A stretch of DNA of 64,000 nt from Christiangramia sabulilitoris (GTDB lineage Bacteria; Bacteroidota; Bacteroidia; Flavobacteriales; Flavobacteriaceae). This document shows, in pieces, positions 43,295 to 57,042 of this stretch (the first letter of the stretch is position 1; every line of letters starts with the position of its first letter). A program made the position numbers and the translations under genes. The stretch spans positions 531,500 to 595,499 of the forward strand of contig NZ_VHSF01000003.1 of NCBI RefSeq assembly GCF_007050985.1, read 5' to 3'. The notes under the pieces were generated by a model, which was not told the DNA's origin, did not search any database, and saw only the letters and a program-made list of their open reading frames with translations.

Positions 43295-43768
43295 ATGAAA
43301 AAAGTTCTACTTTTTGTATTTACTTTAATACTTACCTCCTGCAATTTTGAAACTAAAAAGATCTCTGCAGAAGATGTTTTTAAGGAGGAATCGCGGTCTT
43401 TGAATTGGAAAGAAGTTGATGAATATCCTGCGTTCGAAGACTGCCAGCAAAAATCGGGGCTCAAGGCTGCTAAAATTTGTTTTGAACGCCAGGTAGCCAC
43501 AACAATTTATTCCTTTCTGGCTAGTCAGCAACCCGTCGTTACCGAAAGCATTAATGATACTATCATTCTATACCTCGAGATCACAAAAGAAGGGAAACCT
43601 CAGATAGATTCAGTTTTAATAGATTCCACCGTAACCAGGCAGCTTCCAGACATAGAACTATGGTTAAGACAAAGCATAGATTCACTTCCAAAGATCTATC
43701 CTGCAAGTAAACGCGGCATCCCGGTTTCAACCATGTTTAAAATGCCCGTAGTAGTAAAGGCTGAATAA
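43295..43768 (+). CDS. Small lipoprotein with TonB-C-like domain
   Basis: The 157-residue product has a lipobox ending LTSC (Cys16); the frame opens eight codons earlier, but the signal starts at 43295. The mature part reads DEYPAFEDC, ARQ/CFERQVATTIYSFL, ILYLEITKEGKPQIDSV and FKMPVVVKAE. The same order is seen in the C-terminal domain of the M56 protein 2 kb upstream (APAFTGCEN, CTTRKISAYVGENF, VEFKIDEKGNIVDV, ALPIVFKIDE). It therefore looks like a stand-alone, diverged paralogue of that sensor domain. Confidence 0.8.
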   Translation: MKKVLLFVFTLILTSCNFETKKISAEDVFKEESRSLNWKEVDEYPAFEDCQQKSGLKAAKICFERQVATTIYSFLASQQPVVTESINDTIILYLEITKEGKPQIDSVLIDSTVTRQLPDIELWLRQSIDSLPKIYPASKRGIPVSTMFKMPVVVKAE

Positions 43769-43820
43769 ACCGAAGTTCGAATTTAGAAGGAAGAAGTTGG
43801 AATATAAAGAGATTTGGAAA

Positions 43821-43890
43821 CGTCACCCTGAACTTGTTTCAGGGTCTCAAAAAGATGCTGAAACTTCCGAAGCATCGGGATAGCATGACG
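43821..43890 (+). repeat. Palindromic repeat, complete ORF-less copy (70 bp)
   Basis: Starts CGTCACCCTGAACTTG, ends AGCATGACG. Left hairpin CCCTGAA-CTTGT-TTCAGGG, right hairpin GATGCTG...AGCAT with an inner CCGAAGCATCGG palindrome. Reference copy of the family. Confidence 0.88.
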
Positions 43891-43911
43891 AAGTCCCAAC
43901 TATTGGATTTT

Positions 43912-43946
43912 TTCATTTCGAACAAAGAGAAATCTCATTCTCAATT
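43912..43946 (+). repeat. Tail module following the repeat, first copy
   Basis: Matches the segment at 44366-44402 (TCATTTC...AATCTCATTCTCAATT). It covers the stop codon of the YciI-like gene. Confidence 0.7.
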
Positions 43947-44231
43947 CTGAATGTTACTACCTACCACGGCGTTCCATTTTCTAACGGTCCATTCCTTGAT
44001 CAAACCGTTTTTCACATAAGGATCATTCTTTGCAAAAGCAGTTGCCGCATCCTCATTTTCGCTGCGAAAGATCAGGTATGCCTCATCTGCCGGTTCATCA
44101 AGTGCTCCACCCAGAACAAGCTCACCTTTCCCGGCAGCTTCTTGGGCCATCTCCAGATGTTCAGCTCTATACTGACCTCGGTCTTGAAGATAATTATCGG
44201 CTAGTTTGTAATTAAGTATGTAGTAATTCAT
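43941..44231 (-). CDS. YciI-like (YCII-related domain) protein
   Basis: The 96-residue protein has the dimeric ferredoxin-like YCII pattern: YYILNYKLADNYL, RAEHLEMAQEAAGKGELVLGGAL and AYLIFRSENEDAATAFAKNDPYVKNGL, the last with the conserved DPY. The His25 and the Asp of NDP are the usual active-site candidates, but enzymatic function is unknown. The gene is flanked on both sides by copies of the palindromic repeat and its stop lies within the repeat tail. Confidence 0.92.
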   Translation of the reverse strand: MNYYILNYKLADNYLQDRGQYRAEHLEMAQEAAGKGELVLGGALDEPADEAYLIFRSENEDAATAFAKNDPYVKNGLIKEWTVRKWNAVVGSNIQN

Positions 44232-44265
44232 AATTAAAATTTTTAAGTTTCTTCTATTAAGCTGA

Positions 44266-44348
44266 CGTCACATAGTCCTGATTCCTCGGGAGTTTAATTG
44301 TTTTTGGTTGAGATGCTGAAACTCCCGAAGCATCGGGACAGCATGACG
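44266..44348 (+). repeat. Palindromic repeat, degenerate left arm, intact right arm
   Basis: CGTCA at 44266 and TGACG at 44344-44348. The right arm GATGCTGAAACTCCCGAAG...CAGCATGACG is intact; the left arm has decayed (CTCGGGAGTTT remains). Confidence 0.75.
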
Positions 44349-44365
44349 AAGTAATATTAATTTTA

Positions 44366-44402
44366 TCATTTCTAACGAAGTAAAGGAATCTCATTCTCAA
44401 TT
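44366..44402 (+). repeat. Tail module following the repeat, second copy
   Basis: Second copy of the module at 43912-43946; it overlaps the stop codon of the glycosyltransferase gene. Confidence 0.7.
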
Positions 44403-45546
44403 ACTTTTTAAACCTTCTCCCCTTCCAATCATAACCTCCAGATAGCGAAGCGACAGCCACATACACTGTAAAAAAAGGATAAACGATGCTGCACCAGAAA
44501 TAATGACGCATTAAGCTCTCCCGGTTCATGAATTTTGCGGCCTTGAAAATCAGGATAAAATCCACATTAAATTTGAGAAGAAACACCAACATTAAGTACC
44601 GGTAAGAGAATAGATCCAGAAAGGTTAAAACCATAAAAAAGATTAGAGAAAAATTCATTAGGAAAACAATAACACCGGTAAACTTTGCCAGTATACTGGT
44701 ATAGGAAGAAGTTTTTGCAGCCCAGCGTATCCGCTGGCTGATCAGGCTTCCAAGGCTCTCCTGATAATTGGTCAAAACACCGGCTTTCCTCGATTTTATA
44801 AAGAATAGCTTCTTACCCTGCCTACGGAATGTCTGCAATAAAAAAACGTCGTCTCCACTAGCAATCTCACTATTTTCAGTAAATCCGGCTTTCTGTAGGA
44901 AAGTTTCTTTTCTATAACAAAGATTAGCAGCATTACACATAAAGGCTTTATCGATCCCAAAAGCTCCAATAGTAGATGCCTGCAAACTCATAAAATCCAT
45001 CTCCTCAAAATTTTGAAAATATGGTCTTTTTTGAACGGTTCCGGAAGAAGCAAAACCAACCGGTGCTGCAATTAATTCAGGTTTTTCCAGCTGAATGACC
45101 TCATCAAAATAATGCAGCCAGTCTGCAGGTAATATACAATCAGCATCGGTGGTTGCGATGTAATCAAATCTGGAAACTTCAATAGCTGTAAGTATCGCGT
45201 CCTTTTTTGGGGAAGCACTTCTCCTTTTATTCTCCAGCAATTGAATATTAAGCTCCCGAAAGTCATGTTGAAAAATTTCTGCTAACTGTGAAGAATGGTC
45301 GGTCGACTTATCATTAACCAGTATGATCTCAAATTTTCTACCCGGATAATTCAGGCTGGTCAGAGAGTTAAAAAGCCGTGGCAGGTTATGGGCTTCATTG
45401 CGGTAAGGGATTATAATGGAAAATGTATTTTCCGCAGGCAGGCCTTTTAAATCAAAATCTGGCAAACGCTTCCACCCGTAAAGGAATGAAATAACAAGCC
45501 CCAGGTAGGCAGCTGTAATAAGTCCGAAAAAGATCAGTAAAAGCAT
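44401..45546 (-). CDS. Membrane-bound family 2 glycosyltransferase
   Basis: The 381-residue protein has an N-terminal helix, a GT-A catalytic domain (FSIIIPYRNEAHNLP, LVNDKSTDHSS, ATTDADCILP with the DxD motif, QRIRWAAK as the QxxRW motif) and three C-terminal helices (about 285-375). This is the architecture of processive or polyprenyl-linked GT2 enzymes acting at the cytoplasmic face of the inner membrane. Sugar and acceptor are not deducible. It is divergent from ruvC. Confidence 0.9.
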   Translation of the reverse strand: MLLLIFFGLITAAYLGLVISFLYGWKRLPDFDLKGLPAENTFSIIIPYRNEAHNLPRLFNSLTSLNYPGRKFEIILVNDKSTDHSSQLAEIFQHDFRELNIQLLENKRRSASPKKDAILTAIEVSRFDYIATTDADCILPADWLHYFDEVIQLEKPELIAAPVGFASSGTVQKRPYFQNFEEMDFMSLQASTIGAFGIDKAFMCNAANLCYRKETFLQKAGFTENSEIASGDDVFLLQTFRRQGKKLFFIKSRKAGVLTNYQESLGSLISQRIRWAAKTSSYTSILAKFTGVIVFLMNFSLIFFMVLTFLDLFSYRYLMLVFLLKFNVDFILIFKAAKFMNRESLMRHYFWCSIVYPFFTVYVAVASLSGGYDWKGRRFKK

Positions 45547-45556
45547 AACCGATTAG

Positions 45557-45590
45557 TTTGATGCTGCCAAAGCAGAATTGTTTAGCTTTG
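45557..45590 (+). promoter_or_regulatory. ruvC promoter
   Basis: TTTG at 45557-45560 and TAGCTTTG at 45583-45590 (exact TAnnTTTG), spaced 22 bp. The GTG start follows 27 bp later. Confidence 0.65.
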
Positions 45591-45616
45591 TGAATGTCCC
45601 AAATTAGGTAATTTTA

Positions 45617-46198
45617 GTGAGCAAATCTTCGGAAAAATCAGTTTTGAAAGGCGAAAGGATCATTCTCGGCATCGACCCGGGAACTACTATTATGGGTTTC
45701 GGACTCATAAAAGTGGAGAACAAAAAGATGAGTTTTATCCAGATGAATGAACTTCAATTGAGCAAATACAGTGATCACTATAAAAAGCTGAAACTGATCT
45801 TTGAACGCACTATTGAACTTATAGATAATTATCATCCTGATGAGATCGCAATCGAAGCTCCTTTCTTCGGAAAGAATGTACAATCCATGCTGAAACTGGG
45901 ACGGGCGCAGGGAGTAGCCATGGCCGCCGGGCTATCGAGGGAAATTCCTATCACAGAATATCTTCCCAAAAAGATCAAAATGGCCATTACCGGTAATGGA
46001 AATGCCAGTAAGGAACAGGTGGCAAAAATGCTGCAAAGTCAGCTTAATATTGGAAAGCTTCCCAAAAACCTGGATGCTACAGATGGTCTCGCTGCCGCGG
46101 TTTGTCATTTCTATAATTCCGGCAAGACCGAAATAGGAAAAAGCTATACGGGCTGGGATGCGTTTGTAAAGCAAAATGAAAAAAGAATAATAAAGTAA
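45617..46198 (+). CDS. ruvC: Holliday junction resolvase RuvC
   Basis: The 193-residue RNase-H-fold endonuclease shows the acidic catalytic residues Asp20 (LGIDPGTT), Glu80 (IAIEAPFF) and Asp153/Asp156 (NLDATDGLAAAVCH). It cleaves four-way junctions together with RuvAB. The start is a GTG; no ATG is available before the conserved LGIDPGT. The stop overlaps the ATG of the DUF3667 gene. Confidence 0.97.
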   Translation: MSKSSEKSVLKGERIILGIDPGTTIMGFGLIKVENKKMSFIQMNELQLSKYSDHYKKLKLIFERTIELIDNYHPDEIAIEAPFFGKNVQSMLKLGRAQGVAMAAGLSREIPITEYLPKKIKMAITGNGNASKEQVAKMLQSQLNIGKLPKNLDATDGLAAAVCHFYNSGKTEIGKSYTGWDAFVKQNEKRIIK

Positions 46199-46926
46199 TG
46201 AGTGGCATCTGTAATAATTGTGGCGCCAGACTGTCTGGGAATTATTGCTCAACTTGCGGCCAGCGTGCTAAAATTGGACCCATTACGTTTTCAGAACTAC
46301 GGGAGGATTTTTCTCAAAGTTTATTTTCTGTAGAATCTCCTATAGCAATTACTCTCAAAACTTTATTTCTAAAGCCTGAAAAACTATTTTCTGAATATTT
46401 GAATGGTAGTAGAAAAAAATATTACCGCCCGGTTGCATTTTTCATTTTAATGACGGCATTATACCTCCTGGTTAGATCACTAATAGGTTTTGAAACAAAT
46501 ATGGACACCATTGCCACGGTAGATGAGAATACAGCCGATGTACAAAAGGAGGCGACGGTATTTATGATCTTAAATATCAATAAGTTTTTATTTCTACTGG
46601 TATTTGGGCTAGGCATCTCATTAAAGCTCTTTTTTTATAATCGCTTGCGTATTATTGAGTATTGGGTGATAGCCTTTTATATCGCAGGGATTTATACTTT
46701 GCTTACCATTTTTGGAACGGTCATTACAGTTTATGGCAGCAAGCAAATCCAGCCTGTAATCATCCTTTTAGCATTAGTTTATTTTATCTACTGCTGCATT
46801 AGATTTTTTGAGGGTAATAGATTTGTGATAGGAGTTAAATCATTTCTGGCGTTTCTCATCGCCATGTTGATCTATGTAGCAGGAAGTTTCGAATTATCCT
46901 ATCTTATCGTCTCCTATATAATATGA
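46198..46926 (+). CDS. DUF3667 membrane protein with N-terminal zinc ribbon
   Basis: The 242-residue protein has a zinc ribbon with Cys5, Cys8, Cys17 and Cys20 (CNNC...CSTC), then ITLKTLFLKPEKLFSEYLNG, typical of DUF3667, and about five helices. Function is unknown. It overlaps ruvC at the start and hemW at the end by 4 bp, so the three genes are one translationally coupled operon. Confidence 0.9.
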   Translation: MSGICNNCGARLSGNYCSTCGQRAKIGPITFSELREDFSQSLFSVESPIAITLKTLFLKPEKLFSEYLNGSRKKYYRPVAFFILMTALYLLVRSLIGFETNMDTIATVDENTADVQKEATVFMILNINKFLFLLVFGLGISLKLFFYNRLRIIEYWVIAFYIAGIYTLLTIFGTVITVYGSKQIQPVIILLALVYFIYCCIRFFEGNRFVIGVKSFLAFLIAMLIYVAGSFELSYLIVSYII

Positions 46927-48047
46927 GCGGAATTTACATACATATTCCTTTTTGCAAGCAGGCCTGCCATTACTGTGATTTTCATTTTTCCACTTCCACG
47001 AAGAAGAAAACAGAGTTGGTAGAAATGCTCTGTAGGGAACTGGAAATTAGGAAGGACGAAATAGGACAGAACATTCAAACCATCTATTTTGGTGGAGGAA
47101 CTCCTTCCCTACTGAATTTTGAAGAATTAAATTCCATCTTCAATGCAATCTATAAGAACTTTAATGTTTCTGAAAACGCCGAGATCACTCTGGAGGCAAA
47201 TCCCGATGATCTTTCAGAAGAAGTGATCAAAATGCTTGATGCTTCTCCGGTAAATCGATTAAGTATTGGAGTTCAGTCATTTTTTGAAGAGGACCTTAAA
47301 TTGATGAACCGGGCTCATAATTCTGAGGAAGCATTGAGCTCTCTTCAGCTAGCAAAGCAATATTTTGATAATATCAGTATCGATCTTATCTACGGGATTC
47401 CCGGGCAATCCAATGAACAATGGATAGAAAATTTAAACAAAGCCGTTGAGCTTGGTATTCCACATATTTCAAGTTACGCGCTCACCGTAGAACCAAAAAC
47501 CGCCCTTGAAAAATTCATAGAAAAAGGGAAAGTCAAGCCTGTTGAAGATGAAACTTATCGGGAACAATTCGATATTCTGGTAAACAAGCTCAGCGAAAAC
47601 GGATTTGAGCATTATGAATTTTCGAATTACGGAAAACCGGGTTTTCATTCTCAGAACAATATGGCTTACTGGCTGGGAAACCCTTACCTGGGAATTGGTC
47701 CATCAGCCCATTCCTACGATGGTACTTACAGAAAATGGAATATCAGTAATAATACGCTGTATATAAAAGCCATTGAGGCCGGAAATCTACCTCAGCAAAC
47801 CGAAGAACTTTCCACCACCGATTCTTATAACGAATATGTAATGACCCGGCTGCGAACCAAATTCGGTGTTTCCACAGATGATATTCAGCAAAAATTTGGA
47901 GAAAAATACCGTGATCACTTTTTTAAGGAAACCGGTAAATTCCTGGATGACGGACTCATGGAAAAAATTGGAAACACTTTTCATATTACCACAAAAGGAA
48001 AATTCCTTAGTGACGGGATCGCAGCAGATCTTTTTTATATTGATTAA
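46923..48047 (+). CDS. hemW: HemW-type radical SAM heme chaperone
   Basis: The 374-residue protein has the radical SAM cluster motif Cys11-x3-Cys15-x2-Cys18 (PFCKQACHYCDF), IYFGGGTPSLL, LEANPDD, RLSIGVQSF and IDLIYGIPGQ. Lacking the extra sequence features of coproporphyrinogen dehydrogenase HemN, it fits HemW, which binds heme and delivers it to respiratory enzymes. Last gene of the ruvC operon, followed by repeats. Confidence 0.93.
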   Translation: MSGIYIHIPFCKQACHYCDFHFSTSTKKKTELVEMLCRELEIRKDEIGQNIQTIYFGGGTPSLLNFEELNSIFNAIYKNFNVSENAEITLEANPDDLSEEVIKMLDASPVNRLSIGVQSFFEEDLKLMNRAHNSEEALSSLQLAKQYFDNISIDLIYGIPGQSNEQWIENLNKAVELGIPHISSYALTVEPKTALEKFIEKGKVKPVEDETYREQFDILVNKLSENGFEHYEFSNYGKPGFHSQNNMAYWLGNPYLGIGPSAHSYDGTYRKWNISNNTLYIKAIEAGNLPQQTEELSTTDSYNEYVMTRLRTKFGVSTDDIQQKFGEKYRDHFFKETGKFLDDGLMEKIGNTFHITTKGKFLSDGIAADLFYID

Positions 48048-48069
48048 AACCTCACTTACTTAATACTTT

Positions 48070-48160
48070 CGTCACCCTGTCCCGAAGCTTCGGGAGTTTC
48101 AGGGTCTCCTGAGATGCTGTAATCAAAGATTCAACGAAGTTAAACAAGTTCAGCATGACG
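48070..48160 (+). repeat. Palindromic repeat, 91 bp copy
   Basis: CGTCACCCTG...CAGCATGACG. The left arm contains CCCGAAGCTTCGGG inside CCCTG...CAGGG; the right arm ends ACAAGTTCAGCATGACG. Confidence 0.85.
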
Positions 48161-48189
48161 CACTGCTTTATACCAGTCATTACTATCAA

Positions 48190-48255
48190 AATTGATCAGG
48201 AGTCTCAGGGCCTCATAAGATGTTGAAAATCCCGAAGCTTCAGGAAAACATGACG
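48190..48255 (+). repeat. Palindromic repeat, degenerate copy
   Basis: Decayed left arm (AGTCTCAGGGCCTCA) and right arm GATGTTGAAAATCCCGAAGC...CATGACG. Confidence 0.65.
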
Positions 48256-48290
48256 ATTTTATCAAAATCGAGATAAATCTCAATTGTCCA

Positions 48291-48322
48291 TTGTCAATTA
48301 TCAACTAACAATACTACATTTG
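48291..48322 (+). promoter_or_regulatory. Promoter of the cyclase-family gene
   Basis: TTG at 48291-48293 and TACATTTG (exact TAnnTTTG) at 48315-48322, spaced 21 bp; the ATG lies 19 bp downstream. Confidence 0.6.
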
Positions 48323-48341
48323 TTAGGACCAATCAAACAAC

Positions 48342-49091
48342 ATGTTAGCGAACATAAGCCATCACGGTAATTCATATAAAATAGATTTCTCTCATCCACT
48401 CGATATTTCCATCAGTCTACGCGGGGATAATAAGAATCCAATGGCCTGGTATTTAAAGCATCCGGAGATCGAACCTGTAATTGATGGTGATTTTATTGGT
48501 AAGGTGAGCAAGGGATCTTCGGTGAATTTCAATAATATCTGGTTTAATCCGCATGCTCATGCCACGCATACCGAATGTGTGGGCCACATTAGCAGCGAAA
48601 CACATACTATTCAGCAACATTTGAAAACCTTCTTTTTTAAGGCGGAACTTATTTCTATTGAACCTCAGAAAAAAGGAACTGATCTCGTTTTCACTAAAGA
48701 GCAGTTACAAAAGAAACTAAAAGATTTCAAGGCTGAAGCGCTTGTGCTGCGAACACTTCCGAATTATATCGGGAAGATCTCTAAAAATCATTCGCATACC
48801 AACTGGCCATATATTGAGGAAAATGCCATGATCTATATTCGTGAATTAGGCATTAAACATTTGTTGACCGACCAGCCTTCAGTCGACAGGGAAAAAGATG
48901 AAGGGAAGCTACTTGCTCATCGGGCCTTCTGGGATTATCCTAAGAACACCAGGTTTGATGCGACAATTACAGAATTGATCTATGTTCCGAATAAGATCGA
49001 AGATGGAGATTACTTCTTAAATCTTCAACCCGCTTCGTTTGAAAATGACGCCGCTCCCTGCAAGCCGGTATTGTATAAAATTATTGAGTGA
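48342..49091 (+). CDS. Cyclase / kynurenine formamidase-like metal-dependent hydrolase
   Basis: The 249-residue protein belongs to the cyclase family. Metal-binding residues lie in PHAHATHTECVGH (His71, His73, His76, Glu78, His82), a variant of the usual HxGTHxDxPxH in which Thr-Glu replaces the Asp-containing part. LVLRTLPNY and LLTDQPSVD are further family blocks. The family hydrolyses N-formylkynurenine or similar amides/lactones. No tryptophan-degradation genes adjoin it, so the substrate is open. Confidence 0.85.
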   Translation: MLANISHHGNSYKIDFSHPLDISISLRGDNKNPMAWYLKHPEIEPVIDGDFIGKVSKGSSVNFNNIWFNPHAHATHTECVGHISSETHTIQQHLKTFFFKAELISIEPQKKGTDLVFTKEQLQKKLKDFKAEALVLRTLPNYIGKISKNHSHTNWPYIEENAMIYIRELGIKHLLTDQPSVDREKDEGKLLAHRAFWDYPKNTRFDATITELIYVPNKIEDGDYFLNLQPASFENDAAPCKPVLYKIIE

Positions 49092-49441
49092 TGAAAACTA
49101 CCATAAAACTAGAAGAACTTGCCATGCTCCTTCTGGCAACCTGGGCATTTAGCCTTCAGGACCTCAGCTGGTGGTGGTTCATTGGTTTGTTCTTCGTACC
49201 AGATGTTGGAATGCTGGGCTACCTTATTAATAATAAATGGGGCGCTTTATTCTATAATTTCTTTCACCTTAAAGGCCTGGCGATTGTCATTGGCTTAACT
49301 GGATATTATCTTAAATTGCAGGAACTGGAAGTTGCCGGCATTATTTTGTTCGCGCATTCCAGCTTTGACCGCTTGCTTGGATACGGATTGAAGTTCGAAA
49401 AAGGCTTTAAATTTACACATCTGGGAGAAATAGGAAATTAA
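49088..49441 (+). CDS. DUF4260 small membrane protein
   Basis: The 117-residue protein has about three helices and LEELAMLLLATWAFSLQDLS, FFVPDVGMLGYL and LFAHSSFDRLLGYGLKF, which are DUF4260 signatures. Overlaps the cyclase-family gene by 4 bp, so it is co-translated. Function is unknown. Confidence 0.9.
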   Translation: MMKTTIKLEELAMLLLATWAFSLQDLSWWWFIGLFFVPDVGMLGYLINNKWGALFYNFFHLKGLAIVIGLTGYYLKLQELEVAGIILFAHSSFDRLLGYGLKFEKGFKFTHLGEIGN

Positions 49442-49442
49442 T

Positions 49443-50057
49443 ATGGAATTACTCTTTATAGGTTTGGCCATTGGCGCCGTGGCAGCATACTTCATTTTTG
49501 CAGCTTTTAATAAGGAACGCTCAAGATCAAAGACCAGCGAACAATCAGTTGTTTTAATGGATAAGATCAAAAGTGTTTGCAAATTCATTACCGTGGAAGG
49601 CGATTTTTCTGAGATCTATCATTATGAAAATCTGAAGGAGAAATATCTTAGCCTCATCCTCGGAAAGAAAAAAGCCATTGTCCTGGTAACTGCTAAAGCG
49701 CATGTAGGTTTCGACCTGAGTAAGATCAGGATGGATAGTGACAATGAGAATAAAAAGATCATCCTCACCAATTTTCCGCAGCCGGAATTGTTAACTATTG
49801 AAACAGATTTCAAATATTACGACAAACGTGAAGGATGGGCAAACCCGTTTACAACTTCAGATCTAACCGATATTAACCGTGACGCGAAAAAGACCATTGT
49901 AGATAAGATCCCTCAAAGCGGGCTGCTGGACAAAGCGAAAGCTGAAGCTTTGGATACTATTCTTCTCATGGAAAAGATCGTTGAAACCATTGGCTGGAAA
50001 CTGGATTACACGGCTCTGACGATTGAAAATACTGAAAACAAAAAGATTGAAAAGTGA
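49443..50057 (+). CDS. DUF4230 membrane-anchored protein
   Basis: The 204-residue protein has one N-terminal helix (residues 3-20) followed by a DUF4230 domain: VCKFITVEGDFSEIY, KAIVLVTAKAHVGFDLSKI and IILTNFPQPELLTIETDFKYYDK. It begins one base after the DUF4260 stop. Function is unknown; members are anchored in the membrane with the domain outside the cytoplasm. Confidence 0.9.
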   Translation: MELLFIGLAIGAVAAYFIFAAFNKERSRSKTSEQSVVLMDKIKSVCKFITVEGDFSEIYHYENLKEKYLSLILGKKKAIVLVTAKAHVGFDLSKIRMDSDNENKKIILTNFPQPELLTIETDFKYYDKREGWANPFTTSDLTDINRDAKKTIVDKIPQSGLLDKAKAEALDTILLMEKIVETIGWKLDYTALTIENTENKKIEK

Positions 50058-50116
50058 AATTAGGAGATGCTGTAAATAGTTAGGTATAACGCCTAATATT
50101 TTAATTTGTTTTACCA

Positions 50117-50466
50117 CGTCACCCTGAACTTGTTTCAGGGTCTTTCTTTTAAAAAATGAAAAACAGTTATACTTATATACTGGCAAATAAAACAAGAACT
50201 GTACTTTATATAGGCGTAACTTCTGAATTGAAATCAAGACAGATACAGCATAAAAATGGTGAAGGATCAATTTTCACAAGAAAATACAAAATTTACGACC
50301 TGATGTATTTCGAAGAATTTTCAGATATTAATCAGGCAATAGCAAGAGAAAAACAATTGAAAAACTGGCATAAGGATTGGAAATTGAATTTGATCAAAAC
50401 TGAAAATCCAGAGATGAGAGATTTATTCTCTGAACTATGAGATGCTGAAACAAGTTCAGCATGACG
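50117..50466 (+). mobile_element. Putative 350-bp mobile element: palindromic repeat arms flanking a GIY-YIG gene
   Basis: The left arm is the standard one (CGTCACCCTGAACTTG, hairpin CCCTGAA/TTCAGGG, 50117-50142). The right arm is GATGCTGAAACAAG...CAGCATGACG (50441-50466, hairpin GCTGAA/TTCAGC). In other copies these arms lie only a few bases apart. Here the space between is filled by a complete GIY-YIG nuclease gene. It looks like the autonomous form of the repeat family. Confidence 0.7.
50156..50440 (+). CDS. GIY-YIG family endonuclease (UvrC N-terminal-like), inside repeat element
   Basis: The 94-residue protein is a single GIY-YIG domain: YTYI near the N-terminus (GIY strand), LYIGVTSEL (YIG strand, residues 17-25), the catalytic arginine Arg28 followed by His32, and the metal-binding glutamate Glu65 in AIAREKQLKNW. 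All active-site positions are present, so the enzyme is probably active. It starts 14 bp after the left repeat arm and its TGA overlaps the first bases of the right arm. This precise fit suggests that it acts on the repeats themselves. Confidence 0.93.
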   Translation: MKNSYTYILANKTRTVLYIGVTSELKSRQIQHKNGEGSIFTRKYKIYDLMYFEEFSDINQAIAREKQLKNWHKDWKLNLIKTENPEMRDLFSEL

Positions 50467-50487
50467 ATTACCAAATACCATTTTGAA

Positions 50488-50514
50488 CGTCACCCTGAAC
50501 TCGTTACAGGGTCT
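50488..50514 (+). repeat. Solo left arm of the palindromic repeat
   Basis: CGTCACCCTGAACTCG with hairpin CCCTGAACTCGTTACAGGG, but no right arm; the MmcQ-like gene starts 13 bp after it. Confidence 0.75.
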
Positions 50515-50526
50515 AAGAATTAAAAC

Positions 50527-50886
50527 ATGAACATCGATACATTCAGAGATTATTGCCTGGCAAAAAAAGGAGTTACCGAAGGCCTTCCCTTTGGTCCGGA
50601 TAATCTCGTTTTAAAGGTAATGGGCAAGATGTTTTCTATCGTTTCTCTGGACGAGGTGCCGCTTAGGGCAAATTTAAAATGTGATCCAGAACGGGCCATA
50701 GAGCTTCGGGAAGAATATGAAGACAATATTCTGCCGGGTTATCATATGAATAAACAACACTGGAATACTCTGGTACTGGATGGTCGGCTGGATCCAAAAC
50801 TGGTTTTTGAATTGATTGACCATTCTTACGAACTTGTAGTTAACGGACTCACCGCAAAGCTGAAAAAGGAACTTGAAGATTTATAA
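50527..50886 (+). CDS. MmcQ/YjbR-family protein
   Basis: The 119-residue protein has the CyaY-like/MmcQ fold signature: RDYCLAKKGVTEGLPFG, VLKVMGKMFSIVSLDE, LKCDPERAIELREEY and YHMNKQHWNTLVLDG. The family is annotated as DNA-binding, but evidence is limited. It overlaps the MutS-like gene by one base, so the two are translated together; a link to DNA transactions is possible. Confidence 0.92.
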   Translation: MNIDTFRDYCLAKKGVTEGLPFGPDNLVLKVMGKMFSIVSLDEVPLRANLKCDPERAIELREEYEDNILPGYHMNKQHWNTLVLDGRLDPKLVFELIDHSYELVVNGLTAKLKKELEDL

Positions 50887-52664
50887 TGACAAAAGCTGAA
50901 GAATTTTACTCCTCGCGACAGGCGAAATACTCCGAATTAAAAAAACAGATCTCCAGGAAATTAGCTTTGTCAAGCACCTTAAGGTTAGTAGTCTTTCTGG
51001 CGATCTGCGCCTCAAATTATTTTTTCTTCGGAAATATTACTATCCAGTTACCCCTGGTAATTGCGCTTATAGCTGTTTTCATATTCTTAATTTCAAGGCA
51101 TACCGATCTGAAAAAAGAACGGGATAAGCTTGCTGCTTTGATCGATATCAACAGACTGGAACTTAGGATCCTTAAAACAAGGGATTTCTCAGATCTGCCA
51201 GACGGAAAAAAGTTTGAACCTGAGGATCACGAGTATGCCCGGGACATCGACCTTTTTGGCAGAAAATCATTCTTCCAGTTTCTCAACAGAACCGCTTTAA
51301 AAGAAGGAAAGGCCAGGCTCGCTAAAATTCTACTCGCGAATAAAACCGAAGACATTCTAAAGAAACAGGAAGCGGTAAAAGAACTGGCTTTAAAAGCCGA
51401 CTGGAGACAGAATTATTCTGCCACGGCCACCCTGGTAAAGACCGAAACCGATTCCAAATTCATCCTTAACTGGATACAGAATTACAAAAGTTTTGTGCCG
51501 AAATACATGAAATGGTTTCCGGCGGTATTTTCAATATTATCGATTGCCGTATTGGCGCTATTCTATTTCGATATCATTGGCGGCTCCCAGGTGCTGCTAT
51601 GGTTTATAATTGGCGTACTTATAACCGGAGTTTTTCTGAAAAAAGTCAATGACCTGTCTGGAACTGTAAGCAAGGTGCAGGATACATTTCAGCAATATCA
51701 CCAGTTACTGGATTTCCTTGAACAAGAAGAATTCGAATCGGCATTAATGCAAGAAGTAAAGAATTCCATTACTTCAGAATCTAAAAAAGCTTCCGTCATT
51801 TTAAAGGAATTTTCCCGGGCCATAGATGCGCTGGATCAACGAAACAATTTCCTTTTCGGGATATTCGCTAACGGATTCTTTCTCTGGGATCTTAGGCAAT
51901 GCTATCGACTGGAAAAATGGATTCAGCATCATCATACAGCAGTGGAACATTGGTTTGAAGCTGTAGAAAGGACAGATGCTTATAACAGCCTGGGGAATTT
52001 CAGCTTTAACCACGAGTCCTATCATTTCCCTGAAATTCTGAAAACAGGAGAAGGTATTACCGCCAAAAATTTAGGCCATCCATTATTGCATCCACAAAAG
52101 CGCGTGAACAATGATTTCAGGATCGATGGGGAACAGTTCTTTATTATTACCGGTGCGAATATGGCCGGAAAAAGTACATTCCTGCGAACGGTCGCGCTGC
52201 AGATCGTGATGGCAAATATCGGACTTCCGGTTTGTGCTGAATCTTGCAGCTATGCTCCTACCAAACTCATTACCAGTATGCGTACCAGCGATTCCCTGGG
52301 CGATGATGAATCTTATTTCTTTTCAGAATTAAAAAGGTTGAAGTTTATTGTTGATAAGATACAGACTGAAGATTATTTCATCATTCTGGATGAGATCCTG
52401 AAGGGAACCAACAGTACCGATAAAGCAATAGGGTCAAGGAAATTTGTGCAGCGCCTGGTAGGTACTAATTCCACCGGAATCATTGCGACGCATGATCTGA
52501 GCTTATGTGAGATAAGTCAGGAATTAGAGCAGGTGGAGAACTTCTATTTTGATGCTGAAATCGTGAACAATGAACTTCACTTTGATTATCATTTAAAAGA
52601 TGGCGTGTGTCAGAATATGAATGCTTCCTTTTTACTGAGGAAGATGAAGATCGTGGAAGATTGA
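50886..52664 (+). CDS. Membrane-anchored MutS-like ATPase
   Basis: The 592-residue protein has two helices near residues 30-65 and another pair around 205-250, then a MutS ATPase domain with Walker A GANMAGKST (residues 423-431), TSMRTSDSLGDDESYFFSEL and Walker B FIILDEILKGTNSTDKA. The MutS mismatch-recognition and connector domains are missing, so it is not a classical mismatch-repair MutS. It resembles the Bacteroidota MutS-related proteins of unknown role. The ATPase site appears intact. Confidence 0.88.
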   Translation: MTKAEEFYSSRQAKYSELKKQISRKLALSSTLRLVVFLAICASNYFFFGNITIQLPLVIALIAVFIFLISRHTDLKKERDKLAALIDINRLELRILKTRDFSDLPDGKKFEPEDHEYARDIDLFGRKSFFQFLNRTALKEGKARLAKILLANKTEDILKKQEAVKELALKADWRQNYSATATLVKTETDSKFILNWIQNYKSFVPKYMKWFPAVFSILSIAVLALFYFDIIGGSQVLLWFIIGVLITGVFLKKVNDLSGTVSKVQDTFQQYHQLLDFLEQEEFESALMQEVKNSITSESKKASVILKEFSRAIDALDQRNNFLFGIFANGFFLWDLRQCYRLEKWIQHHHTAVEHWFEAVERTDAYNSLGNFSFNHESYHFPEILKTGEGITAKNLGHPLLHPQKRVNNDFRIDGEQFFIITGANMAGKSTFLRTVALQIVMANIGLPVCAESCSYAPTKLITSMRTSDSLGDDESYFFSELKRLKFIVDKIQTEDYFIILDEILKGTNSTDKAIGSRKFVQRLVGTNSTGIIATHDLSLCEISQELEQVENFYFDAEIVNNELHFDYHLKDGVCQNMNASFLLRKMKIVED

Positions 52665-52772
52665 GTTGATTAGACTTCACAGGTTTTTAATACCTGTAAG
52701 ATCTGTTCGAAGAAGTAAGGCGGTTGGCGCAATTTTAGCCTGAGATCGCTTCATTACATTCGCGATGACTTA

Positions 52773-52837
52773 TGTCACATTGAGCGCAGTCGAAATGTGA
52801 TATCATGATTAATGCTTCGACTCCGCTCAGCATGACA
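52773..52837 (+). repeat. Second palindromic repeat family, TGTCA...TGACA copy
   Basis: TGTCACATTGAGCGCAGTCG at the left and TTCGACTCCGCTCAGCATGACA at the right are complementary in their arms (GAGCG/CGCTC, TCGAA/TTCGA). Confidence 0.8.
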
Positions 52838-52849
52838 ATTAGTTAAAAA

Positions 52850-52886
52850 TCACCCTGTCCCGAAGTCTCGGGAGTTTCAGGATCTT
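52850..52886 (+). repeat. Left arm of the main repeat family
   Basis: TCACCCTGTCCCGAAG...TTTCAGGATC without a right arm, immediately upstream of the YdjM-like gene. Confidence 0.7.
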
Positions 52887-52914
52887 TTGTAAAGTAAAAC
52901 TATCTTTACCAAAT

Positions 52915-53919
52915 ATGGATTCAGTAACCCAGATCGTTTTAGGAGCAGCTGTTGGAGAAGCTGTTCTTGGTAAGAAAGTCGGTAAAAAAGCAATACTCTA
53001 CGGAGCAATTGCCGGGACCATTCCAGATCTCGATACGCTGGTCGGCAACTTTTTTGATACCATCACGGCTATTGAAATTCACCGTGGTTTTTCCCATTCC
53101 ATAGTTTTCGCGGTCCTCTTTGCCCCCATATTTGGCTGGATCATTTCAAAGATCGAATCGAATTCTGAAGCTACCTGGAAGAACTGGTCATGGTTAATGT
53201 TCTGGGGCTTGTTCACACATCCCTTACTCGATGCACATACTACCTGGGGAACCCAGCTTTTCTGGCCTTTCGATCTGAGACTTGCCTACAAGAATATCTT
53301 TGTAATAGATCCGCTTTACACCCTGCCGTTTCTGTTCTTTCTAATCATGGCCATGAGATTTAACCGGACAGATCCAAAAAGAAGGAAATACAACCGGCTT
53401 GGGCTCATTGTGAGTAGTATTTATTTGTTAGTGATCACTCCGGCATTAAAATTCTATACTTTCCAAAAATTTGAAGCTGCCCTGGAAGAGCAAAATATCA
53501 CTTATGAAAGAATGGACACCAGGCCAACGCCTCTAAATTCGATTTTATGGACTGCCAATATCGAAACAGATGAATCCTTTCTTATCGGGAATTATTCTGT
53601 TTTTGATACTCAGCCAATAGATTTTTATACCGTCCCCAAAAACTATGATCTGGCCGCCGATCTGGCTGATGATCCCAACCTGAACAGGTTGATCCAGATA
53701 AGTGATGGCTGGTATACATTTTCAGAAAAGAACGGCGATCTCTATTTCAATGACCTCAGGTTTGGTAATATGGATATCGAAGATCCTGATTCCGAATTTA
53801 TTTTCAGCTACAAATTAGCCGAAGAACACGGTGAACTAACCGCAACTGAAACTGAAAAGGAAATGACCGATGCCAAGAATTTTCTGCCGAGACTTTGGGC
53901 ACGTATTCTCGGTAATTAA
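52915..53919 (+). CDS. YdjM-like membrane-bound metal-dependent hydrolase
   Basis: The 334-residue protein begins MDSVTQIVLGAAVGEAVLGK, then GTIPDLDTLVG and IEIHRGFSHSIVFA, the signatures of the LexA-binding, inner-membrane-associated hydrolase family (YdjM). About four helices lie in the first 190 residues, and a soluble domain follows. A possible -7 box (TATCTTTA, 52901-52908) ends seven bases before the ATG. Natural substrate is unknown. Confidence 0.9.
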   Translation: MDSVTQIVLGAAVGEAVLGKKVGKKAILYGAIAGTIPDLDTLVGNFFDTITAIEIHRGFSHSIVFAVLFAPIFGWIISKIESNSEATWKNWSWLMFWGLFTHPLLDAHTTWGTQLFWPFDLRLAYKNIFVIDPLYTLPFLFFLIMAMRFNRTDPKRRKYNRLGLIVSSIYLLVITPALKFYTFQKFEAALEEQNITYERMDTRPTPLNSILWTANIETDESFLIGNYSVFDTQPIDFYTVPKNYDLAADLADDPNLNRLIQISDGWYTFSEKNGDLYFNDLRFGNMDIEDPDSEFIFSYKLAEEHGELTATETEKEMTDAKNFLPRLWARILGN

Positions 53920-53990
53920 TCCTAATTCATTAAAATTGCCACTAATGCACTAATAATCTTTGAATTCAATCTATTTCTTTCACCTTTTAA

Positions 53991-54030
53991 GAGTCTTTGC
54001 GAGCGGAGTGTAACGGAGCGAAACAATCTC
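53991..54030 (+). repeat. Degenerate palindromic repeat (GCGAGCGGAGTG type)
   Basis: GAGTCTTTGCGAGCGGAGTG and ACGGAGCGAAACAATCTC resemble a widespread intergenic repeat type. Only one copy is in the window. Confidence 0.5.
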
Positions 54031-54171
54031 ATTTTTGGAACTTTGAATAATAAAACTGCTCAAGTTATTTCGTTCCTGCGCAGAGACAGTGATTTTAAAT
54101 CTCAACTTCACTTTTTTTTCTTTGATCTTCTAGAATTTACAAATCAGTATATTTAGGAAAAAATTCTATTT

Positions 54172-55881
54172 ATGCGATTTCTCCCGGCACTTCTGGCCAT
54201 TTTCATGTTTTTTTCCGCTTCGGTTTACGCTCAAAAGGATTCTATAGCCCTCGAAAAGATCATTACGAAATTTCAGAAACACGAGCCTTTTAAACGCTCA
54301 GAATATCCGCTTGGGCTTTATACTGAAGAGCATTATAAAAAGGAAGCTGATTTTGCTGAAACATTGCTGAAAGAAATAAAGGATTTAGATTATTCTCAAC
54401 TTTCAGAATCTCAAAAAATATCTGCTGATCTTCTGAAATATGATCTGAAGAACACAGTGAAAACTTATGAATTCAAGGCTTATCTGAATCCGCTTTTATC
54501 TGATTCCGGCTTTCACCTAAGCCTTAATTATCAAATCCGTGACCTGAACAATTATGAACAGGTCAGGGCCTACCTGAATAAATTAAATGCGATTCCAGAA
54601 TATGTAGATCAGCATTTTAAGTTATTGCGTGAAGGTTTAAAAGAAGGGATCACCCAACCACTAATAATATTCGAAGGTTATGAGAATACGTATGATTCTC
54701 AGATCGTAGATAATTATAAGGACAGCTATTTCTATAAACCTTTTGAAAACCTGCCTGCAACTTTATCTAAAAAGCAAAAAGATTCGGTTTTAATTGCTGC
54801 TGAAAAAGCGATCTCAAAAAACGTGATTCCTGAATTCAAGCGCATCAAAAAATTCTTTGAAACTGAATATTATCCAAAAACTAAGACTGCTTTAGGAGTT
54901 TCAGAAATCCCCAATGGAGAAGAATATTACGATTACCTACTGGAATATTATACCACTTTAGACCTAAGTGCCGATCAAGTTCATAACATCGGACTGGACG
55001 AGGTGCAAAGAATCAATACCGAAATGAAAAAGGTGATGGCCGAAACCGGTTTTAAAGGTTCTTTTTCTGAATTCTTTGACTTCCTGAGAACAGATGAACA
55101 ATTCTATGCTGAAACCCCTGAGGAACTGCTCATGTTCGCCAGGGATATCGCTAAACGTATCGACGCGAAATTACCGGCATATTTCACCAAACTGCCAAGA
55201 AAGCCTTATGGTGTTGCAGAAGTTCCTGCGGCAATTGCTCCGAAGTATACCACCGGAAGGTATATTGGCGCTTCAGATGAAACTCAGCCGGGATATTACT
55301 GGGTAAACACTTACGACCTGCCGAGCAGGCCAAAATATGTTTTACCCTCATTAACGGCGCATGAAGCCGTGCCGGGACATCATTTACAGATCTCCTTAAA
55401 CAATGAACTTGGAGATGAAATTCCTGAATTCAGGAGAAGGTTTTATATCTCCGCTTTTGGTGAAGGCTGGGGATTATATTCGGAATTTCTGGCGGAAGAA
55501 ATGGGCATTTACCGTAATCCTTATGAGGTTTTCGGAAAACTTACTTACGAACAATGGCGTGCCTGCCGACTGGTTGTGGATACCGGAATTCATGCAAAGG
55601 GCTGGACAAGAGACCAGGCCGTAGATTTTATGAAAAAGAATACTGCACTTTCCATTCACGAGATCAATACCGAAGTAGACCGTTATATTTCCTGGCCGGG
55701 GCAGGCTGTTTCATACAAGATCGGGGAGCTAAAGATCCGTGAACTGCGAAAGAAAGCGGAAGAAGCTTTAGGAGCCGATTTCGATATCAGGAAATTTCAC
55801 GAAGTGATCCTGGAAGAAGGAGTATTGACCTTACCAATTCTCGAGAAAAGGGTGATGGAGTATATCAAATCTAATTCTTAG
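54172..55881 (+). CDS. DUF885 family putative metallopeptidase/carboxypeptidase
   Basis: The 569-residue protein has a signal peptide (ending VYAQ) and the DUF885 metallopeptidase-like motif HEAVPGHH (residues 397-404), flanked by YVLPSLTAHEA and FGEGWGLYSEFLAEEMG, the latter with the third-ligand glutamate. This gluzincin-like family is poorly studied. It is probably periplasmic. Monocistronic. Confidence 0.92.
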   Translation: MRFLPALLAIFMFFSASVYAQKDSIALEKIITKFQKHEPFKRSEYPLGLYTEEHYKKEADFAETLLKEIKDLDYSQLSESQKISADLLKYDLKNTVKTYEFKAYLNPLLSDSGFHLSLNYQIRDLNNYEQVRAYLNKLNAIPEYVDQHFKLLREGLKEGITQPLIIFEGYENTYDSQIVDNYKDSYFYKPFENLPATLSKKQKDSVLIAAEKAISKNVIPEFKRIKKFFETEYYPKTKTALGVSEIPNGEEYYDYLLEYYTTLDLSADQVHNIGLDEVQRINTEMKKVMAETGFKGSFSEFFDFLRTDEQFYAETPEELLMFARDIAKRIDAKLPAYFTKLPRKPYGVAEVPAAIAPKYTTGRYIGASDETQPGYYWVNTYDLPSRPKYVLPSLTAHEAVPGHHLQISLNNELGDEIPEFRRRFYISAFGEGWGLYSEFLAEEMGIYRNPYEVFGKLTYEQWRACRLVVDTGIHAKGWTRDQAVDFMKKNTALSIHEINTEVDRYISWPGQAVSYKIGELKIRELRKKAEEALGADFDIRKFHEVILEEGVLTLPILEKRVMEYIKSNS

Positions 55882-55913
55882 ATCTTTATAAGACTCATAG
55901 CCTGAGTTTAAAC

Positions 55914-55921
55914 TATCTTTG
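55914..55921 (+). promoter_or_regulatory. Bacteroidota -7 box (TATCTTTG) for the PhnA-domain gene
   Basis: Exact TAnnTTTG, 18 bp before the ATG at 55940; it overlaps the earlier in-frame codon at 55919 and so supports the later start. Confidence 0.6.
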
Positions 55922-55939
55922 CAGCGAAATTTAGAAAAA

Positions 55940-56518
55940 ATGACCTTAGAACAAAGCCTAAAACAGCGCAGTGATTCCTCCTGTGAACTCTGCGGAAACA
56001 AGGAAACCCTTAAAGTTTACGAGATACCAAATTCTCCTGAACAGGTACTTCTAAAGGAAATTCTTATTTGTGATATCTGCCACACCCAGTTAGAAGATCC
56101 GGAAAAAACCGAACCTAACCATTGGCGTTGTTTAAATGATTCTATGTGGAGCACTGTGCCCGCGGTGCAAGTGATGGCCTGGAGAATGCTCAATAGATTG
56201 AGATCTGAAGGATGGCCGCAAGACCTTCTGGATATGATGTATATGGAAGATGAGGTAAAAGAATGGGCGAAGGCCGGAATTCAGGAAAAAAAGGCTGAAA
56301 ATGTAATAGTTCATAAAGACAGTAACGGAGCGATCATTGAAGCTGGAGATACTGTGGTTTTAACTAAAGACCTCAACGTAAAAGGTTCTAGTTTAACCGC
56401 AAAAAGGGGAGCTGCTGTAAGAAGGGTATCACTGGTTCATGATAATGCCGAACAGATAGAAGGTAAGGTAGAAGGGCAGCAGATCGTGATCCTTACTAAA
56501 TTTGTCAAAAAAGTTTAG
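55940..56518 (+). CDS. PhnA (YjdM-like) zinc-ribbon protein
   Basis: The 192-residue protein has an N-terminal zinc ribbon (Cys15-x2-Cys18 and Cys44-x2-Cys47; SCELCGN, ICDICHT) and a C-terminal PhnA domain (KDSNGAIIEAGDTVVLTKDLNVKGSS, IVILTKFVKKV). The family was named from phosphonate-utilisation clusters, but the role of stand-alone members is uncertain. The middle region (residues 55-115) is an extension seen in the longer bacterial form. Confidence 0.92.
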   Translation: MTLEQSLKQRSDSSCELCGNKETLKVYEIPNSPEQVLLKEILICDICHTQLEDPEKTEPNHWRCLNDSMWSTVPAVQVMAWRMLNRLRSEGWPQDLLDMMYMEDEVKEWAKAGIQEKKAENVIVHKDSNGAIIEAGDTVVLTKDLNVKGSSLTAKRGAAVRRVSLVHDNAEQIEGKVEGQQIVILTKFVKKV

Positions 56519-56548
56519 TTTCGATTGAGAATTAGAGATTGTTCCAAG

Positions 56549-56586
56549 AGATCCTGAAACTCCCGATGCTTCGGGACAGGATGACG
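56549..56586 (+). repeat. Right arm of the main repeat family
   Basis: GATCCTGAAACTCCCGATGC...CAGGATGACG. The arm bases changed from ATGCTG/CAGCAT to ATCCTG/CAGGAT, so pairing is kept. Confidence 0.75.
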
Positions 56587-56614
56587 CTGGCAGAAAAAAC
56601 CAATTTTTAAAAAT

Positions 56615-56684
56615 CGTCAAGCTGAACTCGTTTCAGCTTCTCAAATGAGATTCCTACTCCCGATAAATGGGGATCGGAATGACA
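56615..56684 (+). repeat. Complete palindromic repeat with altered left stem (70 bp)
   Basis: CGTCAAGCTGAACTCG...TTCAGCTTCTC at the left (AAGCTGAA/TTCAGCTT, paired) and GGATCGGAATGACA at the right. Confidence 0.75.
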
Positions 56685-56697
56685 TAAAACAAAAAGT

Positions 56698-56931
56698 ATG
56701 AGCGAAAATATTAATAAGAACGAGCAACCAAACAATCCGCTGCACGGAGTAAAGCTGGCTACCATCATGGAAAAGCTACACGCTCATTACGGATGGGATG
56801 GCCTTGCAGATCGCATCAATATCAATTGCTTTAAAAGTAATCCGACCATTAAATCCAGTCTTAAATTCTTAAGAAGAACACCATGGGCAAGGGAAAAAGT
56901 GGAAAGACTTTATTTGAAAACAGATTTTTAA
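56698..56931 (+). CDS. VF530 family protein
   Basis: The 77-residue protein has [42 protein letters not shown] and EKVERLYL, diagnostic of the VF530 DNA-binding-like family (DUF2132). Function is unknown. It lies just after a palindromic repeat and is followed by two more. Confidence 0.93.
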
Positions 56932-56936
56932 AATAC

Positions 56937-57008
56937 TGTCATTTCGAAGAAGTGAAACGACTGAGAAATCTAACCTTGAAGAGATTTCTCCCTCTGGTCG
57001 AAATGACA
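56937..57008 (+). repeat. Second palindromic repeat family, TGTCATTTCGA copy
   Basis: TGTCATTTCGAAGAAG at the left pairs with GGTCGAAATGACA at the right; inner part AGAAATCT/AGATTTCT is also palindromic. Confidence 0.8.
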
Positions 57009-57015
57009 TTTAAAA

Positions 57016-57042
57016 TAGATCCTGAAACAAGTTCATGATGAC
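57016..57042 (+). repeat. Right arm of the main repeat family
   Basis: AGATCCTGAAACAAGTTCATGATGACA, with paired CTGAAACAAGTTCA. Confidence 0.65.

Follow-up and report, generated by a model that had tools for sequence, protein, structure and literature searches.

A GIY-YIG nuclease gene between YGTC-tagged REP hairpins: a candidate partner for CGTC-type repeats

The nuclease gene and its repeats in Christiangramia sabulilitoris

The stretch of DNA that we analysed (the window) spans 64,000 nucleotides of the flavobacterium Christiangramia sabulilitoris. At 50117-50466, it contains a small gene for a GIY-YIG nuclease between two arms of a dispersed REP-type hairpin repeat. Related repeats lie elsewhere in the window:

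50117-50143, + strand: left REP arm, with a CGTC tag, an 8-bp stem, and a 5-nt CTTGT loop (hairpin search); sequence CGTCACCCTGAACTTGTTTCAGGGTCT
50156-50440, + strand: nuclease gene GIY1, 94 codons (94 aa), Pfam GIY-YIG (PF01541)
50440-50466, - strand: right REP arm, with its CGTC tag facing outward, an 8-bp stem, and a 5-nt CTTGT loop (hairpin search); sequence AGATGCTGAAACAAGTTCAGCATGACG
50065-50091, - strand: degenerate right-type REP, AGATGCTG...TATAACG, repeat family D2, 66% to the right arm
50467-50487, no strand: spacer S of the downstream REP dimer (sequence reading)
50488-50514, + strand: further left-type REP, CGTCACCCTGAACTCGTTACAGGGTCT (hairpin and pattern search)
43821-43890, no strand: ORF-less, tag-outward REP pair, the reference copy of an earlier note on this DNA (hairpin search)
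59324-59385, no strand: ORF-less, tag-outward REP pair, CGTCAAGCTG... / ...CAGGGTGACG (hairpin and repeat search)
56615-56641, + strand: single REP of the same family as the window arms (hairpin and pattern search)

The arm and ORF layout given in the earlier note is exact to the base, both in the sequence and in the repeat search (pair I15). The left arm is 27 nt long and the ATG lies 12 nt downstream of it; the 14 bp of that note holds if the arm is taken to end two bases earlier. The final A of the stop codon TGA is also base 1 of the right arm, an overlap of one base. Both stems are fully paired, with ACCC in the outer stem of the left arm and ATGC in that of the right arm. The degenerate REP at 50065-50091 is the outer partner of the left arm. 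Together with the REP at 50488-50514, it places the nuclease between two REP dimers, beyond the two arms.

Four places in the window (48070-48110, 52850-52885, 56545-56590, and 59264-59304) hold a REP variant with a second, nested hairpin (TGTCCCGAAGCTTCGGGAGT) in its loop, replacing CTTGT. The region at 59.26-59.39 kb has three REPs in C. sabulilitoris and in its congener G152 and one in G150 and G161, which fits gain and loss alike.

By profile, fold, and conserved residues, the protein is a member of the GIY-YIG nuclease superfamily. PF01541 (E = 1.4e-15) is the sole Pfam family over its cut-off; a match to an NCBIfam model fell far under that model's cut-off. The columns that are invariant in 39 homologues include Y7, Y18, G20, R28, H32, E65, and N84, which we take to be the catalytic set of GIY-YIG enzymes. 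The AF2 model is a single domain (mean pLDDT 95.8). According to Foldseek, the nearest solved folds are 1zg2 (UPF0213, E = 6e-4), Slx1 (E = 0.017), and the N-terminal domain of UvrC (E = 0.12), and the only sequence matches in the PDB at E = 0.01 are 1zg2 and 1ywl, which are both UPF0213 proteins. All of these share the fold of the window nuclease; the literature read here records no REP association for them. Neither Pfam nor the predicted fold revealed an HUH tyrosine transposase in the window protein. Purifying selection acts on the nuclease: of 21 pairs, the 9 with computable dS give dN/dS values of 0.04-0.25, and the remaining pairs are saturated. PADLOC gave no match that would indicate a defence role for the unit.

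The repeats belong to the CGTC REP superfamily, as defined by Di Nocera, De Gregorio, and Rocco (2013; PMC3733652). They share its CGTC or TGTC tag, its 8-9 bp stem, and its 4-5 nt loop, and they likewise are present in many copies and form tag-outside dimers and hetero-dimers. In that study, tag-outside (HH) dimers predominate, the carriers include Bacteroidetes (among them G. forsetii), and the CGTC-1 repeats of Neisseriae are dRS3. The usual place of the repeats is downstream of a gene, and transcription is plausible for many of them. The unpaired tail is CCA in most of them, but not all, whereas CT recurs in the arm tails of C. sabulilitoris; several of the proteobacterial arms that we examined finish in CCA. 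CGTC REPs "apparently lack a dedicated transposase", and their REPtrons were suggested to have disappeared. The authors looked at tyrosine transposases and at other transposase classes, and their text contains "GIY-YIG" 0 times. In the window, a GIY-YIG gene occupies the position of the transposase that those repeats were reported to lack.

We found no report of a link between a GIY-YIG gene and REPs in titles and starts of abstracts among the matches listed, a search with subscription papers and preprints outside it. In the parts that were available, "GIY" does not occur in the RepRanger paper of 2025 (PMC12306157) or in a review of MITEs (PMC10969869). "GIY-YIG" is mentioned in PMC7263005, PMC8439580, PMC548270, and PMC12220804, whose titles name other subjects: fungal mitogenomes, a restriction enzyme, and viruses of algae.

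The C. sabulilitoris genome (3.2 Mb in 23 contigs; the window's contig is 780 kb) contains 70 matches to a 27-mer REP pattern with up to 3 mismatches, versus 0 for the reversed control.

Among 93 adjacent REP pairs, 46 face outward, 36 face inward, and 11 are on the same strand, so the lead of the outward arrangement is modest. YGTCAT is present in 164 arms, with its YGTC part a result of how arms were selected; beyond the tag, the consensus holds a weak T (51%) at -1 and nothing else. By eye, several tag-inward REP pairs of the C. sabulilitoris genome, such as the one at C12:402731-402953, couple a TTTAT-loop REP with a CTNGT-loop REP, which might reflect a hetero-dimer rule.

The C. sabulilitoris genome encodes five homologues of the nuclease at the search cut-off (GIY1-GIY5). 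On the 780-kb contig, the arms of GIY1 recur at a peak of 6 further copies for the upstream arm and 15 for the downstream arm. The flanks of GIY3 and GIY4 are also high-copy there (peaks of 12/13 and 10/10, upstream/downstream), and those of GIY2 and GIY5 are low-copy (1/1 and 3/0). Of 100 control ORFs on this contig, none had both flanks at 5 or more copies, and 8 had one. Reading the flanks by eye, we found the CGTCACCCTGAA family around the window gene and three others, namely TGTCATTCAGAG, CGTCACTTCGAG (around two of the genes), and TGTCA...GCTTCGACTGCGCTCAGC, which suggests that the five nucleases occupy different repeat families. In the automatic arm tests described below, GIY1 passes the strict test, GIY4 passes the looser test, and GIY2, GIY3, and GIY5 fail both, in part because hairpins with long or nested loops fall outside the tests. 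The genome has six other matches to the GIY-YIG domain, which by reading are UvrC, two exonuclease-type proteins, and three small proteins (one with an internal stop); none of these six has a tagged hairpin within 300 nt.

Association of the nuclease family with REP arms

To examine the flanks of homologues, we collected loci from a search of the window's family (29 further loci, plus 40 chosen stretches from the 118 matches listed), from plasmids (13 loci from 33 matching records), from phage (1 locus from 10), and from a scan of species genomes. From the scan, we kept the best 80, by similarity, of at least 566 confirmed loci. Arms were no criterion for selection, and several rows of the scan's query alignment were derived from REP-flanked genes. 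This gave 183 homologous ORFs, of which 177 had enough flanking sequence (6 were left out). As controls, we used 915 other ORFs of at least 130 aa from the same loci. The strict test required tag-outward hairpins within 250 nt on both sides; the looser test was passed by the strict test or by inverted similarity between the two flanks.

By the strict test, 82 of 177 nuclease ORFs (46%) are flanked by arms, versus 4 of 915 control ORFs. By the looser test, it is 127/177 versus 23/915. After removing duplicates, the looser count is 125/174 (Fisher p = 6e-98, with loci taken as independent). Homologues that usually lack arms, a pattern that the earlier note named as evidence against its proposal, are not what the looser test shows. 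A single outward arm is found at 34/177 nuclease ORFs and 100/915 controls, and tag-inward arms on both sides are found at 15/177 and 6/915. Where arms lie within 200 nt on both sides (87 loci), the nearest arms face outward at 68 loci, inward at 2, and the same way at 17. Fifty of the 177 homologues fail both tests, and 17 of these have one arm. The pairing of the nuclease with REPs is genuine and widespread, and for the most part it is specific.

In the species-genome scan, 57 of the 76 usable loci (of 80) pass the looser test and 38 pass the strict test, with passes in 14 named phyla. The looser test is passed in Pseudomonadota (26/30), Bacteroidota (13/18), Chloroflexota (2/2), Ignavibacteriota (1/2), and Fibrobacterota (1/2), and at single loci in Omnitrophota, Armatimonadota, Elusimicrobiota, Thermotogota, LCP-89, and four more candidate phyla. 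There were no passes in Bacillota (0/3) or in Acidobacteriota, Nitrospinota, Kerfeldiibacteriota, Buchananiibacteriota, and an unnamed bacterium (0/1 each). Arms are also absent at the one phage homologue fetched, in Photobacterium, and in R. tumorigenes. Five of the loci from Acidobacteriota, Nitrospinota, and Bacillota (L183, L186, L202, L232, and L243) fail both tests, with one arm at L202; possibly these nucleases have other partners or their repeats are degenerate. The nearest arms in Azospirillum face inward. By eye, and outside the counts, the homologue from Neisseria gonorrhoeae lies amid CGTCATTCCCGC...GCGGGAATCC repeats, and in Sinorhizobium K101 the gene is flanked on each side by a hairpin of similar kind, but the tag is altered and both hairpins point the same way.

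Each nuclease clade tends to carry its own type of REP stem and loop. For the comparison of arm types, we used 76 loci with both strict arms (the 82 minus duplicates and short ones). Distances between proteins and between arms are correlated across these loci (Mantel r = 0.33), within the 28 loci of the window's family (r = 0.49), and within the other 48 (r = 0.24); 0 of 2,000 permutations reached these values in each case. The two main loop classes have 4 nt (GAAG, GAAA) or 5 nt (CTTGT, CTTGA). The left and right arms have the same loop class at 70 of the 76 loci (shuffled mean 34, maximum 48), and at 68 loci that class is the 4- or 5-nt one on both sides. On the protein tree (68 rows), loop class changes 10 times; in 200 shuffles, the minimum was 17 and the mean was 21.9. 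In six genomes with at least two arm-bearing nucleases, the arms of 12 of 13 nucleases are nearer to those of the closest foreign homologue than to those of their own paralogues, so sequence habits of the host are an unlikely cause.

We also asked if the nuclease predicts REP copy number, using 149 genomes, one per genus of the window's family (these are kin and hence non-independent), and two REP patterns. Clade A was defined as at least 95 bits (31 genomes) and clade B as at least 126 bits (13 genomes), with these limits set after the score gaps were known; clade B as defined has two arm types inside it. Each clade predicts its REP family. At least 3 copies of REP-A are present in 29/31 genomes with a clade-A nuclease versus 22/118 without (p = 8e-15), and for REP-B and clade B the counts are 11/13 versus 18/136 (p = 2e-7). 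The 22 genomes with clade A only have a median of 11 REP-A and 0 REP-B. The cross terms are weaker (p = 0.004 for clade A with REP-B and p = 0.01 for clade B with REP-A), and they are non-zero in part because 9 genomes carry both clades.

Overall, with a cut-off of E = 1e-15, a homologue is present in 67 of the 149 genomes. Of the 82 genomes without any homologue at this cut-off, 10 have at least 5 REPs of type A or B. Within the window's genus (24 genomes), the 8 genomes with a clade-A nuclease have 46-119 REP-A, versus 107, 22, 6, 148, 37, 35, 1, 31, 1, 2, 48, 0, 43, 0, 84, and 2 in the 16 genomes without (Mann-Whitney p = 0.003; one genome in each group is less than 75% complete). Nine of these 16 have 22-148 REP-A. 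One of the 16 (G162) has a 48%-identical homologue, and G149 and G159, which have no clade-A nuclease by our count, hold broken remnants at the site orthologous to the window's. REP-rich genomes that lack the nuclease imply that the repeats outlive it or that something else also maintains them.

Presence, absence, and arrangement of the units

We read the orthologous intergenic site in 17 genomes of the genus (C. sabulilitoris and 16 others). C. sabulilitoris, G164, G159, G163, and G149 carry the unit there, whole or broken. G160 (locus L071) has a gene-less R-S-L dimer, that is, two REPs with their tags facing inward across a spacer S. Six genomes (L066, L067, L069, L072, L073, and L076) have a different TGTC repeat pair of the TGTCATTCCGATTCCGATGAAATCGGG type, and two (L068 and L077) have a G/C-rich hairpin of the CCTTCCC...GGGAAGG type. 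This hairpin is also found at one Sphingobium locus (L250) and is possibly another dispersed family. Three genomes have none of these at the site. As the TGTCATTCCGATTCCGATGAAATCGGG-type pair in sister species illustrates, this one intergenic spot draws several repeat families.

A second site, B, lies 2.4 kb away. It holds a unit in G152, G150, and G164 and, by positions, in G163, G160, and G183 as well. The homology of the window's unit to site B ends at the arms: 50116-50466 (G152), 50111-50467 (G150), and 50117-50466 (G164). The earlier note proposed that the 350-bp unit could be an autonomous mobile element. The homology supports discrete ends for the unit; no fresh insertion and no target duplication were seen. 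Recent transposition between the two sites is unsupported: the C. sabulilitoris unit is more similar to the unit at the same site in G164 (81.6%) than to the copies at site B (74.3-78.1%), and both G164 and G163 have units at both sites. These observations fit better with an ancestral duplication followed by differential loss.

Presence and absence are also polymorphic in other bacteria. Sphingobium MM7A and TYG46 have the arm-gene-arm arrangement, and TYG73 has it with a frameshift. At the same place, TYG64 and TYG74 have one palindrome, made of the outer half of the left arm and the outer half of the right arm, and TYG72 and TYG65 have neither unit nor palindrome. Judging from the sequence, the palindrome could be what a deletion between the 8-9 nt stem repeats leaves behind or an empty homing site; the two would look alike. 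In Azospirillum lipoferum, a unit lies between sufB and sufC (L160, 1986-2279). Three relatives (95-96% identical) lack it, and their flanking intergenic DNA differs, with no target duplication visible. Across the window, comparison within the genus yielded five candidate target duplications; each time, the hairpin-like stretch was present in both genomes, and none was a REP insertion. At sufB-sufC in Azospirillum, at fnrL-fixJ in Sphingobium, and in Shinella, where mostly one genome per species was compared, we found no clean target duplication either. The compared loci display presence/absence polymorphism but no target duplication. Empty sites, which the earlier note had proposed to look for together with target duplications, may have counterparts in the gene-less sites of G160, TYG64, and TYG74.

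The earlier note also took ORF-less copies to be deletion derivatives of the unit. This may hold at the one Sphingobium site (TYG64 and TYG74). It cannot explain the roughly 70 REPs of the C. sabulilitoris genome, which have several stem types and accompany one nuclease gene of the window type. Most ORF-less REPs are better read as non-autonomous repeats that are served in trans.

At 11 of the 82 strict-arm loci, the gene lies between two complete direct R-S-L dimers. At the others, there is a dimer on one side (18), inner arms only (34), or a different arrangement (19). The spacers of the two dimers match well in 6 of the 11 loci (scores of 28-90; two of the six are one locus, L238) and are unlike in the other 5 (scores of 7-13; the between-locus mean is 9). 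For instance, 82 nt are identical at L238, 69 nt are nearly identical at L228, and the spacers in S. meliloti are similar over about 120 nt. We considered a mobile spacer. With an R-S-L query from S. meliloti, only arm-sized parts of 51-58 nt match other records among the 25 listed of 103, so the spacer looks like local duplicated DNA. Units are joined head to tail by R-S-L dimers in arrays at L238 (5797-7400, with a period of about 503 nt and 97% identity), in G160 (L309, 3188-4042), and, partially, at L099 (5707-6705). Through homologous recombination between such direct R-S-L repeats, the gene could be lost or multiplied, in much the way that solo LTRs arise. Internal stops are present in 11 of the 118 family matches listed.

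Possible roles of the nuclease

We think that the unit is probably a GIY-YIG "REPtron": a nuclease gene that lies between YGTC-tagged REPs (C or T, then GTC) and that serves ORF-less REPs in trans. By analogy with the RAYT (TnpA-REP) REPtrons of GTAG REPs, GIY-YIG proteins are most likely the dedicated enzymes of YGTC REPs. Both systems have a REP-flanked nuclease gene of low copy number and dispersed ORF-less REPs. In both, enzyme clade and REP type go together; RAYTs are described as co-evolving with their REPs, and tnpA-REP genes as behaving like housekeeping genes (PMC8266576). The two systems differ in enzyme and tag: GTAG goes with an HUH tyrosine transposase in the RAYT systems, and YGTC with a GIY-YIG nuclease in the window. 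A parallel to REP/RAYT with a different nuclease, as the earlier note had put it, is strongly supported by the arms around its homologues.

In the mechanism that we propose, the nuclease would recognise the YGTC tag together with an extruded hairpin, be it single-stranded or a cruciform, and would nick beside this structure. Repair of the break with other REP copies as the template would then copy REPs and, occasionally, the gene-bearing unit, and the same repair could expand or collapse R-S-L dimers. REPs would multiply this way and the gene would remain at about one copy, a pattern that has been reported for RAYTs. DNA hydrolysis by GIY-YIG enzymes involves no covalent intermediate, so peel-and-paste transposition of the HUH kind is not expected and copying by repair is more likely.

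The main alternative, which we consider unlikely, is a selfish homing gene. REPs that are spread by something else would be its homing sites, not its offspring: gene-less dimers would be cut, and the gene would be copied in by repair. GIY-YIG is a classic homing fold, as in the homing endonucleases I-TevI and I-BmoI, and the window gene is likewise small and possibly selfish, with gene-less sites. The Sphingobium palindrome and the gene-less dimer of G160 resemble empty sites. Two further features also fit a homing gene: some loci have direct R-S-L repeats on either side of the gene, one of them with 82-nt spacers that are identical, and broken copies occur (11/118 listed). But a gene that homes into REPs should become numerous where REPs abound, and clade-A genomes have 1-2 copies beside tens of REPs. 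Also, REP copy number follows the cognate nuclease, which is unexpected if REPs spread independently, and the nuclease is under purifying selection. The window protein departs from I-TevI and I-BmoI in that its 94 aa form one domain and a separate DNA-binding domain is lacking, and its gene is found between repeats instead of inside an intron or a conserved gene.

Less probable still is a host repair enzyme that trims REP cruciforms or stalled forks and that has co-evolved with repeats moved by another enzyme. Slx1 and UvrC, the closest folds after UPF0213, are structure-selective repair nucleases, and purifying selection suits such a role. A patchy distribution (67/149 genomes) and internal stops (11/118 matches listed) do not, and the gene would sit inside its own supposed substrate.

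It is very improbable that the association acts at the RNA level, with the flanking hairpins as terminators or stabilisers that regulate the gene and the dispersed REPs as the same structures borrowed by many genes. The stop codon does overlap the right arm, and the mostly downstream position of CGTC REPs, with transcription plausible for many (PMC3733652), would suit this. But the left arm is upstream, with the same tag facing outward, and a terminator needs neither clade-specific matching of left and right arms nor a YGTC tag. We also considered a known RNA family, and Rfam matched only a tRNA in 42000-62000.

Chance, in the sense that REPs are common between genes and would flank any small intergenic ORF, is hardly credible: one outward arm does occur at 100/915 control ORFs, but control ORFs of the same loci rarely have both (4/915 versus 82/177), and the arms are clade-specific.

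Returning to the GIY-YIG REPtron, a broader version of this reading, which we offer tentatively and rate somewhat below even odds, is that such units are ancient, phylum-wide mobile elements. A hairpin-specific, single-domain nuclease would spread YGTC REPs by nicking and repair-copying, without HUH, DDE, or recombinase chemistry, and these REPs would include the dRS3-type repeats of Neisseria and those of rhizobia and flavobacteria. If so, this would account for one of the two great super-families of REPs.

Our results suggest that the partner enzyme so far missing for a widespread class of bacterial repeats is a GIY-YIG nuclease. Several phyla carry CGTC REPs, for which the defining study (PMC3733652) reported an apparent lack of any dedicated transposase; the nuclease family is a candidate answer. 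A cognate nuclease would be a second, chemically unrelated solution to the problem that REP/RAYT solves. It would also give a possible role to hundreds of genes (at least 566 confirmed in one scan), which are annotated merely as "GIY-YIG nuclease family protein", "excinuclease ABC subunit C", or hypothetical protein. Should the enzyme prove to be hairpin-specific, it would also be a small nuclease (94 aa) with natural variants of differing specificity. What spreads CGTC REPs becomes directly testable by biochemistry.
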